A stretch of DNA of 64,000 bases from Oryzias latipes. Its lineage: Eukaryota; Chordata; Actinopteri; Beloniformes; Adrianichthyidae. The position numbers and the translations under genes were made by a program. Below are positions 27,549-30,318 of this stretch, piece after piece. A model generated the notes under the pieces. It had not been told where the DNA came from. It searched no databases and saw only the letters and a program-made list of their open reading frames with translations. The stretch's first letter is position 1. Each line of letters opens with the position of its first letter. Location: NCBI RefSeq assembly GCF_002234675.1, contig NC_019859.2:2634740-2698739 (forward strand), given 5' to 3'.

Positions 27549-30318
27549 ATGCCCCGCTCCTTCTTGGTGAAGCGAGGAAGTCTGCACCTCCTCCGGCACG
27601 TGGCGAGGAGCCCAAGCCCCGCCTCCACCCAAGATGAATGCAGCCAGTTAGATAAAAACTGGGCAGGAGCAGCAGAACCTCCGAATGAGAAATCCTCCTC
27701 AGCATCGCCGGGGGGGGAGCCTTCTGCCTCCAGCATCTCTGGAAACTCCCTCCCCCAGACCTTCCCTCACAAAGGTGAGGGGCGGAACCCTTTTACGGGT
27801 CACAACCATCTCAAGAAGGACTTTTTCTTTATTCCGTTTGGGATTGTTTTGTGTCTGAAACTGCAGAGTCGTGCAACCCTCTGTGGTTGAGTCGAGTCCC
27901 GGACAAAGCAGAAGAGAGGAGCATGGAGGCGGGACGCTTCACGCAGACGTTTGTGAGGGAAACCAGAAGCAGCAGCTGCTCCAAGACCGGCGGGCCCAGG
28001 CCGGAGTGTCCGCCCTGCAACAAAGTACGGCTGCCGTTGGAGCGCGGCTCCACTGTTTGCTCAGATAGGATGCAAACGTCTTCTGCTGCAGAGCCAAACT
28101 CACGGCATTCTCATCGTTTATCTATGAAAACTTCTGAAACATCTTCACAGAAATATGTTTTTCCCCTGATTTTTCATGCTAAACTTGTTTTTCCTCCTTT
28201 GCAGATATTTTCATGTTTGTACGATTTAAAAACTTGCATTTGTAAACGTCCTGGAGGCAGATTTCAGCTGTCAGCAACTCAACTCAAATCCAGCAGGACG
28301 GATGAAAAGCGGCTGGCGTGCTGGAGTAAGGTACGAGAAAAAAAAAAAACAATAGTTTGAACCTTTATTTAACAGAAAACCTTTCATTATTTCAGTCACC
28401 ACAGACGCTTTAAAAGAAAACGAACCCATTTTTCTAAAGCAGGTTTAAATGAGCTTGCTTGCATTTCTGAGGTTGTTTAGTTGAAGCTGGGATCTCACTG
28501 CTGCTTCACTGGAGACTCAAACTCCCAGCAAACGTCAGGCTCTTTTTCCACGTCTGACCTGCAGGAACTGATGATTCTTAAGTCTCGCATGAGGAAAAGA
28601 GGAGGCATTAAACATCTCAGGCAGCGGCTGGAAGAGAAAGATTTTCAATTAAAAGTAGCGTTACTATAAACAATAATCAGTAGAAGTATTACTTATGAGT
28701 ATAGAGTATCAAAAGTACTTTATAGTTACTGCTATTTTTTCTGGGTATCCTTGTTTTTTAGTGACCTTGTTATTCAGATGCAAACCCGTCGGTTGTGATT
28801 TCCTGTTTAGTGACAGAATGATCTACTTCTTAATGTATTATTCAAATATATCTATCAGAAAATGGAATTCAAGTCAGTCTTATTTAGAAGCCCTATATTG
28901 TTGTTGTCTCAATTTCACTGAACAGACTGTACAAAACCTAAAATCTGTTATAAAATACAACAGCCTGTATGCTAAAGTAACTAAACAGATAAATATCCTC
29001 TGTCTCCTTTTATTCATATGCATTTTTCCTTTAAAAAAAAGCCCATTTTTAAGTGTTTATGAATTAATAAATGCAAAAAAGTTAACCAGACAGCTTCCAC
29101 CCTGTGTAACTGAATAATAGTAGTTTTTGTCTTTAGAAAGTAAATCTACTTCTGTAAAAGTAAAAAGTATGGAATGGGAAAACTACTCTGAGTGTTCAAA
29201 TCTGACTGAAAGCCACTGTCGTAAGTGTAACGGGGTTAAAAAAAGGCGCTTCATTTCCCGCCGCGCCTGTGCTGCAGGAGCGGACGTTCGGCTGCACGGT
29301 GTGCGGGAAGGCGTTCAAGCGCTCCTCCACCCTCTCCACCCATCTGCTCATCCACTCGGACACGCGGCCGTATCCCTGCCAGTACTGCGGCAAGAGGTTC
29401 CACCAGAAGTCCGACATGAAGAAGCACACCTTCATCCACACAGGTGGGGGTCGGTTCCTGGTTCCAACAGGGCGGCGTCTGGATGTAAACTATTTTCTAT
29501 GAATGACATCACTCAGTCCAGTTCTAACATACAGTCAATGGTCTGAACTGAAACTAAATTAAAGACGGAAAAAGAAACAAAAATACAAAACATCCACTGT
29601 TGCAAAAAGTGACGTTTTTCTGACTATATTTTAATTTGTTCTTTTTTTATTAAATGTTTGTGATTGTTTTGTTTTAATTATTTAACTTTGTACACTTTTA
29701 ACCTATTTTATTTACATATTTATACTTCCGTTAATCTTTCTGTCACCGTAGGTCCGCATGACGAATTTTGCACTTTTAAAATTAAGTTTATTTATTTATC
29801 ATTATTTATTTGGAAACAGCTTTAGGTTTATAGGGTTTATAGTCAAGTTTATAATGTGAATATTCCGTTTTACCTATTTACAATGTGTAGGTTTGAGTTT
29901 AAAAGTCTTCTAAATTTGGGTTTTTTATTTTCATTCTTGTTGGCTCAGCAGAACCACTTGTTTGCATTTGAGCAAAGCAAATATTTATGAATTATTAGCC
30001 CCCTCCCCCCCACAGACACACACACCCTGTTGTTTTCATTGTTAGACATGATTCTATTCCGCAGAGTCGCCCATTTTTGTTGGGAAGTTAGGATCCCCAT
30101 GAATCTTTCAGGAGCCGGCGTTAGAAACCCGTCTGTGGGACTTTGTGGTTGTTTTTATGAACTCTCTAATCTCCTAATCCGGACTCTAATCTGCTTCTGA
30201 ACCAGGAGAGAAGCCTCATGTGTGTCGGACATGTGGGAAAGCGTTCAGCCAGAGCTCCAACCTCATCACCCACAGCCGCAAACACAGAGACGACCGGCCC
30301 CACAGCTGCCCCCGCTAG
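27549..30318 (+). CDS. Divergent GFI1-family SNAG/C2H2 zinc-finger transcriptional repressor
   Basis: Coding exons: 27549-27774, 27867-28024, 28205-28330, 29278-29443, 30206-30318 (junction phases 1,0,0,1; 262 residues; human GFI1 has 422). The start MPRSFLVK is the GFI1/GFI1B SNAG peptide, which in the family recruits LSD1-CoREST. The middle region is much shorter than in GFI1. Exon 2 ends in CPPCNK, the point where I recall the finger-1 exon break in GFI1. Exon 3 should carry the rest of finger 1 and finger 2; it reads [15 protein letters not shown] and onward, keeping only a trace of the finger-1 pattern and none of the paired histidines. Exon 4 has intact fingers 3 and 4 (for example [21 protein letters not shown]), nearly identical to GFI1. 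Exon 5 has intact finger 5 ([21 protein letters not shown]), then [10 protein letters not shown] and a stop where finger 6 should begin. Fingers 3-5 are the known DNA-contacting ones. Open frame and splice sites argue for a functional gene; exon 3 is the least certain part. Confidence 0.82.
29486..29545 (+). repeat. MITE family D right-end fragment
   Basis: It contains GACATCACTCAGTCCAGTTC and ACATACAGTCAATGG, matching the right end of the element at 18990-19464. It lies in the intron between the last two gfi1-like exons. Confidence 0.6.

Follow-up and report, generated by a model that had tools for sequence, protein, structure and literature searches.

A GFI1-family gene of medaka with the SNAG core and zinc fingers 3 to 5 but without fingers 1 and 2, a candidate member of a third, teleost-duplicated GFI1 lineage

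GFI1 is a regulator in blood and ear. The window analysed here is a stretch of 64,000 nucleotides from Oryzias latipes (C1:2634740-2698739, with zero N letters), and the genome searched with it comprises 734 Mb in 25 contigs. A GFI1-family gene lies on the plus strand of the window at 27549-30318, between a TBC exon of an EVI5L-like gene upstream and a mucolipin exon downstream (Table 1). Two minisatellites are found between the EVI5L and gfi1-like genes (21615-22224; a 21-bp unit repeated 16.4 times and a 57-bp unit repeated 4.2 times), and a GCT repeat of 28 units (25282-25365) lies within an open frame 2.2 kb upstream of the ATG of the gfi1-like gene. On the minus strand, an Amidase_2 exon (36981-37361; Pfam, E 7.3e-12) is part of what we take to be a gene for a peptidoglycan-recognition protein, presumably with an upstream exon at 40384-41412, and the frames at 31144-31672 are assumed to be goose-lysozyme-like; Pfam gave no match for 40384-41412 or 31144-31464. 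A dispersed repeat at 39599-40030 has relatives in 12 of the 28 flank loci (L009-L036).

Table 1. Coordinates of the gfi1-like gene, its parts, its neighbours and its sister gene. Positions are those of the window unless a locus is named.
Feature	Position	Strand	Details
TBC exon of EVI5L-like gene, upstream	1788..2012	+	strand shared with the gfi1-like gene
Coding exon 1	27549..27774	+	226 nt; donor matches consensus 8/9
SNAG core peptide MPRSFLVK	27549..27572	+	identical in 5/5 gfi1 genes of the genome
Coding exon 2, linker	27867..28024	+	158 nt
Remaining first knuckle of finger 1 (ECPPCNK)	28004..28024	+	ECPLCEK in the C8 copy
Coding exon 3	28205..28330	+	126 nt, phase 0/0; stands where the intact genes have the 138-nt ZF1-2 exon; lacks histidine and fingers
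Coding exon 4, ZF3 and ZF4	29278..29443	+	166 nt
Zinc finger 3	29293..29355	+	helix positions -1,2,3,6 = R S T T
Zinc finger 4	29377..29439	+	helix positions -1,2,3,6 = Q S D K
Coding exon 5, ZF5 and beginning of ZF6	30206..30318	+	113 nt including stop
Zinc finger 5	30223..30285	+	helix positions -1,2,3,6 = Q S N T
Cut-off finger 6	30286..30318	+	ten residues, then stop at the second-cysteine codon
18-bp tandem repeat, 2.7 copies	30320..30367	+	directly 3' of the stop, in place of the remaining ZF6
Mucolipin exon, downstream gene	59657..59848	+	MCOLN1 or MCOLN3 type
Sister gfi1-like gene without ZF1-2	L010:2737-5168 (C8)		

The sequence-only reading of the window had proposed a five-exon gene with GT-AG sites and consistent phases, and this model is confirmed: five coding exons with GT-AG at every junction and junction phases 1,0,0,1 encode 262 aa, and none of the exons carries a frame-breaking or splice-breaking change. 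The predicted protein starts with MPRSFLVK and a short linker, continues with a half-finger-1 knuckle and the product of a fingerless exon, and has intact zinc fingers (ZF) 3-5; Pfam matches zf-C2H2 in three stretches. The proposed GFI1-family origin is supported by the SNAG core, the recognition residues of ZF3-5 and the gene structure, since at the borders of exons 3, 4 and 5, where the comparison was made, its junction phases match those of the gfi1 genes on C4, C17 and C12. The pattern C-x2-4-C-x12-H-x3-5-H/C, scanned in six frames, finds ZF3, ZF4 and ZF5 only, and within the window there is no other exon restoring ZF1-2 or ZF6.

The MPRSFLVK start is exact over 8/8 residues. The claim that the SNAG peptide is kept holds for these eight residues and not for the full 20-residue domain: beyond residue 8 there is one match, giving 9/20 against human GFI1 compared with 11/20 for the N-terminus of the copy on C8. 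A PDB search with the SNAG peptide gave no match. The linker has, by eye, little similarity even to the C8 linker.

A whole-genome protein search with the ZF3-5 peptide gave 201 matches, with 150 of 1748 candidates scored. Among the matches listed, five gfi1 genes have ZF3-4 exons that are 73-97% identical to the peptide (window 97%, C8 93%, C17 87%, C4 86% and C12 73%, the last over a longer stretch that runs into the intron), and other zinc-finger genes reach at most 55% with the exception of the C8 ZF5 exon (74%). Six fingers are present in the GFI1-like proteins of C4 and C17, and also in the protein of C12, which clusters with human GFI1B (support 94). In the C8 gene, SNAG is followed by a linker with ECPLCEK at its end, then by an exon without a finger, by ZF3-5 and by a ZF6-like unit. 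Exon 2 of this gene has a weak, A-rich acceptor, so that the junction of exons 1 and 2 is uncertain; three possible starts of exon 2 keep the frame, giving a predicted length of 291-295 aa. In unrooted trees from a short alignment, C1 and C8 split from the other gfi1 genes with support 96 (protein, 83 residues, human GFI1 and GFI1B included) and, among the five genes, group with support 85 (DNA) or 91 (codon positions 1+2). Within ZF3-5, three residues are common to these two genes only (positions 5 G, 8 V and 60 V). Conserved non-coding DNA between C1 and C8 amounts to a few short matches, and of the 6 pattern matches from a scan of viral contigs for relatives, none was confirmed. The existence of a second copy without ZF1-2 on C8 suggests that the cut-down form is old and useful, not dying.

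Fingers 1 and 2 are lost from the window gene as the sequence-only reading had stated, except that the first CxxC of finger 1 (ECPPC, at the end of exon 2) is still present; the end of exon 2 together with exon 3 gives a weak zf-C2H2_4 match in Pfam (E 0.28), located on this knuckle. Exon 3 does have the place and phase of a ZF1-2 exon and has lost its histidines, but the cysteines said to be mostly lost are misplaced instead, numbering four against two in the intact exon. The ZF1-2 exon of each of the three intact paralogues measures 138 nt, is in phase 0/0 and lies 73-94 nt upstream of exon 4. C1 exon 3, of 126 nt, lies 947 nt upstream of exon 4, and the candidate exon 3 of C8 is 135 nt long, in phase, fingerless, with a 9/9 donor, 77 nt before exon 4. 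Intron 3 of the window gene (28331-29277) thus measures 947 bp, against 73-94 bp for its counterparts in the four other gfi1 genes, and has probably received an insertion.

Between exons 2 and 4, exon 3 is the sole exon of 90-160 nt to be open, in phase and above the splice thresholds, and the same search in the C8 gene gave one acceptor with two donors; the thresholds follow a simple consensus that would miss the acceptors of C8 exons 2 and 4. Dinucleotide shuffles with loose thresholds produced at least one such exon in 89/1000 (C1) and 134/1000 (C8) cases, and in 0/1000 for each gene when the thresholds were set afterwards to the observed strengths. The sequence of C1 exon 3 has a weak likeness to ZF1-2 of the intact paralogues (11 to 21 of 5000 shuffles as good), and that of C8 exon 3 has no significant likeness to ZF1-2 (1478-2376 of 5000). 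Against the ZF1-2 exon of human GFI1/GFI1B, local alignment of exon 3 is at chance level (2484/5000 shuffles), whereas global alignment is unusual (15 and 33 of 5000), a level also reached by 26 of the 4221 stop-free 42-residue stretches of the window. As these human alignments are not distinctive, the identity of exon 3 rests on its place, phase and splice sites.

No constraint on exon 3 beyond its frame and splice sites is detectable, which raises the alternative that the exon is a fossil that is always skipped, joining the ECPPC knuckle directly to ZF3. Skipping would preserve the frame in both copies (126 nt in C1, 135 nt in C8), and such a form arises in human GFI1B when exon 5 is skipped, as described in the passages cited (PMC5368270). 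Against this, both copies have retained splice sites and an open frame, which would be unexpected if the exon had long been skipped, although an open frame by itself counts for little because it is not rare in shuffles (698/5000 for C1 and 516/5000 for C8). On balance, constant skipping appears unlikely.

The two fingerless genes have the same layout, position, phase and ECPxCxK knuckle, which favours a single shared loss of ZF1-2. Exon 3 of C1 does not resemble exon 3 of C8 (3428/5000 shuffles score equally well), so that the case for one loss rests on position, phase and knuckle and not on the exon sequence. This dissimilarity would suit two independent losses after the C1/C8 duplication instead of one before it. 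However, the common form of the knuckle (ECPPC in C1, ECPLC in C8), which differs from the KCIKC, KCVKC and HCITC of the intact genes, suggests an alteration of finger 1 already in the ancestor, and one loss is the simpler account; two losses are therefore considered doubtful.

The three fingers had been called near-perfect GFI1 fingers, and ZF3-5 are indeed identical at 70-73 of 82 residues to the three intact six-finger paralogues of the same genome. The columns of the recognition residues are invariant across the five gfi1 genes. In the PDB, 2kmk_A ('Zinc finger protein Gfi-1') aligns with query residues 4-83 as a single stretch of 165.5 bits; by E-value it comes sixth, after many-finger proteins that score as sums of four or five stretches, and the two of these shown aligned reach at most 75.6 bits in any single stretch.

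ZF3-5 are under strong purifying selection. Over 82 codons, C1 and C8 share 75/82 residues, with pS 0.508, pN 0.060 and dN/dS 0.074; dN/dS is 0.077-0.127 between C1 and the intact genes and 0.019-0.098 between intact genes, with dS near saturation and uneven between gene pairs (0.50-1.61). C1 has 9 residues that are unlike those of all three intact paralogues; none of them lies in the helix or zinc-ligand positions, a set defined by the analyst as 42/83 positions (chance 0.001 if random), and the same is true of the 7 such residues of C8. If every nonsynonymous difference from C8 is put on C1 and synonymous change is split evenly, the neutral share of the C1 branch is at most about 24% (upper bound 39%). 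The low dN/dS and this bound together exclude an old pseudogene; a recent onset of decay would be compatible with them. The view of the sequence-only reading that the open frame reflects selection and not random decay is supported by the dN/dS of 0.074 and by the C8 sister without ZF1-2.

Finger 6 is cut by a stop, not exactly at its start as claimed but at the codon of its second zinc cysteine (TGT in C8, TAG in the window gene), ten residues past the last histidine of ZF5. The C8 copy keeps a ZF6-like unit in which the final zinc ligand is Cys for His, and the ZF6 loss is private to the C1 copy. ZF1-2 are missing in both copies while C8 keeps this unit, and fingers 1-2 were therefore lost separately from finger 6. 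The original interpretation is supported in part, with what it treated as one reduction now divided in two.

A recent pseudogene, functional until lately and now decaying after losing ZF6 with its frame open by chance, would account for the truncating stop, for the tandem repeat next to it and for a linker barely similar even to that of C8. It is nevertheless improbable, since the five exons hold no frame-breaking change, the dN/dS and the bound on the neutral share are low, and the residues peculiar to C1 avoid the helix and zinc positions. The ZF6 loss, together with the loss of most of SNAG past residue 8, could mean that the C1 copy is weakening. Truncations of GFI1B reaching into ZF5 abolish function, DNA binding is lost with one that affects ZF5 and deletes ZF6, and a ZF6 missense change was found in a patient, according to the passages cited (PMC5368270). 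In our assessment, the ZF6 loss is the main doubt about the predicted repressor function of the window copy.

Neighbouring genes bear on the lineage to which the pair belongs. An EVI5-family TBC exon occurs at two places only in the genome, in the window and on C4, in both cases upstream of gfi1 and on the same strand, and the window gene thus resembles the GFI1 gene of C4 in the order and strand of this neighbour. The window TBC copy is closer to human EVI5L (152/158) than to EVI5 (126/154), and the C4 copy closer to EVI5 (93/102) than to EVI5L (84/102). There is no EVI5L copy on C8, and the C8 flanks (21843000-21958499) have no other gene in common with the window, the remaining matches looking like dispersed repeats. 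Mucolipin exons are found at five places (window, C8, two on C4, and C17); the window exon scores nearly alike as Mucolipin-1 and Mucolipin-3 (138.5 bits vs 136.2, and 98.9 vs 98.4 in a second comparison). The most similar mucolipin pair is that of the window and C8 (89%), at 30 kb and about 117 kb from the respective gfi1 genes, although the C8 mucolipin is on the strand opposite to its gfi1, unlike the window arrangement. The C4 mucolipins (76% and 75%) are 6.7 and 15 Mb from gfi1, and that of C17 (73%) is 22.9 Mb away. This placement speaks for one duplicated block made up of C1 and C8 and, with looser support, for a second made up of C4 and C17.

The early vertebrate duplications and the teleost genome duplication are established, and the window gene would fit as the EVI5L-side counterpart of GFI1 from the former, doubled again in teleosts. 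A literature search on medaka chromosome pairing found nothing, and among the matches listed no paper dealt with a third, finger-poor GFI1 lineage, although it may be annotated under another name. The passages cited describe two GFI1-family members in mammals (PMC7649360) and, in zebrafish, the genes gfi1aa, gfi1ab and gfi1b, all three discussed as GFI1 or GFI1B orthologues (PMC5003831; PMC8790037).

We regard it as reasonably probable that a third GFI1 lineage, here called gfi1c, has two copies in teleosts, the window gene among them, and that this lineage lost ZF1-2 probably before the duplication and survives as an LSD1-recruiting repressor. The narrower proposition, that the EVI5L-linked counterpart of GFI1 had dropped ZF1-2 before the teleost duplication and that both copies have since been kept as ZF1-2-free repressors, appears evenly balanced. 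The exon structure, the pairing with C8 and the constraint on ZF3-5 are observed; expression, binding, repression, the age of the lineage and the timing of the loss are what we infer from the genes and their surroundings. The ZF1-2 exon would have turned into a featureless linker exon, open and splice-competent, most likely before the teleost genome duplication, and the lineage would have kept the LSD1-binding SNAG tip and the DNA-binding ZF3-5 under strong purifying selection.

According to the passages cited (PMC7649360; PMC5368270), GFI1-family proteins bind the AATC motif with ZF3-5, use ZF1, ZF2 and ZF6 for contacts with other proteins and recruit LSD1 through SNAG. With SNAG and ZF3-5 alone kept, the product of the window gene would share its sites with gfi1 and gfi1b and would be blind to the partners of the outer fingers. 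Its ZF3-5 would sit on GFI1 sites (AATC core; TAAATCAC sites) and MPRSFLVK would recruit LSD1-CoREST, and the protein would not be recruited or modified through partners holding ZF1, ZF2 or, for the window copy only, ZF6. It might thus act as a DNA-dependent repressor and a site competitor, like a short GFI1B isoform fixed as a gene, and the earlier prediction of a repressor reduced to SNAG and ZF3-5 is, as far as the encoded protein can indicate, supported. A dominant-negative decoy that occupies GFI1 sites without repressing would suit the missing partner-binding fingers and the short SNAG, but is very improbable given that the SNAG core, needless for a passive decoy, is preserved letter for letter.

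An architecture without ZF1-2 is not wholly new, as it has a precedent in the short human GFI1B isoform. This form of 284 residues lacks ZF1-2 through exon 5 skipping (PMC5368270), equals or surpasses the long form in repression, and regulates red-cell development (PMC7649360), according to the passages cited. Like it, the window gene combines SNAG and ZF3-5 with a kept finger-1 knuckle and no ZF1-2; unlike it, the isoform is a splice form of one gene and keeps ZF6, whereas here there are separate genes and the window copy is without ZF6. With the six-finger GFI1/GFI1B proteins (C4, C17, C12) the window gene shares the SNAG core, the ZF3-5 recognition residues and the junction phases around the finger exons, but at 262 aa compared with 422/330 it has no ZF1-2 or ZF6 and a different, shorter linker. 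Senseless, PAG-3 and Daphnia GPS have homologous DNA-binding fingers; the window gene, by contrast, keeps SNAG. Its tree sister on C8 has the same layout, also without ZF1-2, and differs in keeping a ZF6-like unit.

If gfi1c is indeed such a lineage, a form that mammals obtain by splicing of GFI1B would have become fixed in genes. A lineage without ZF1-2 would serve as a natural test of the role of fingers 1-2, proposed to be partner binding, and a gene pair in a genetically tractable fish would allow the functions of the outer fingers to be studied apart from DNA binding and LSD1 recruitment, with no need for engineering.

Clusters of GFI1 sites near the gene were also considered. The window contains 6 one-mismatch matches against 3.34 expected, and clustering was dropped since 15/100 shuffles gave 6 or more; the match nearest to the gfi1-like gene is at 23761, 3.8 kb upstream.
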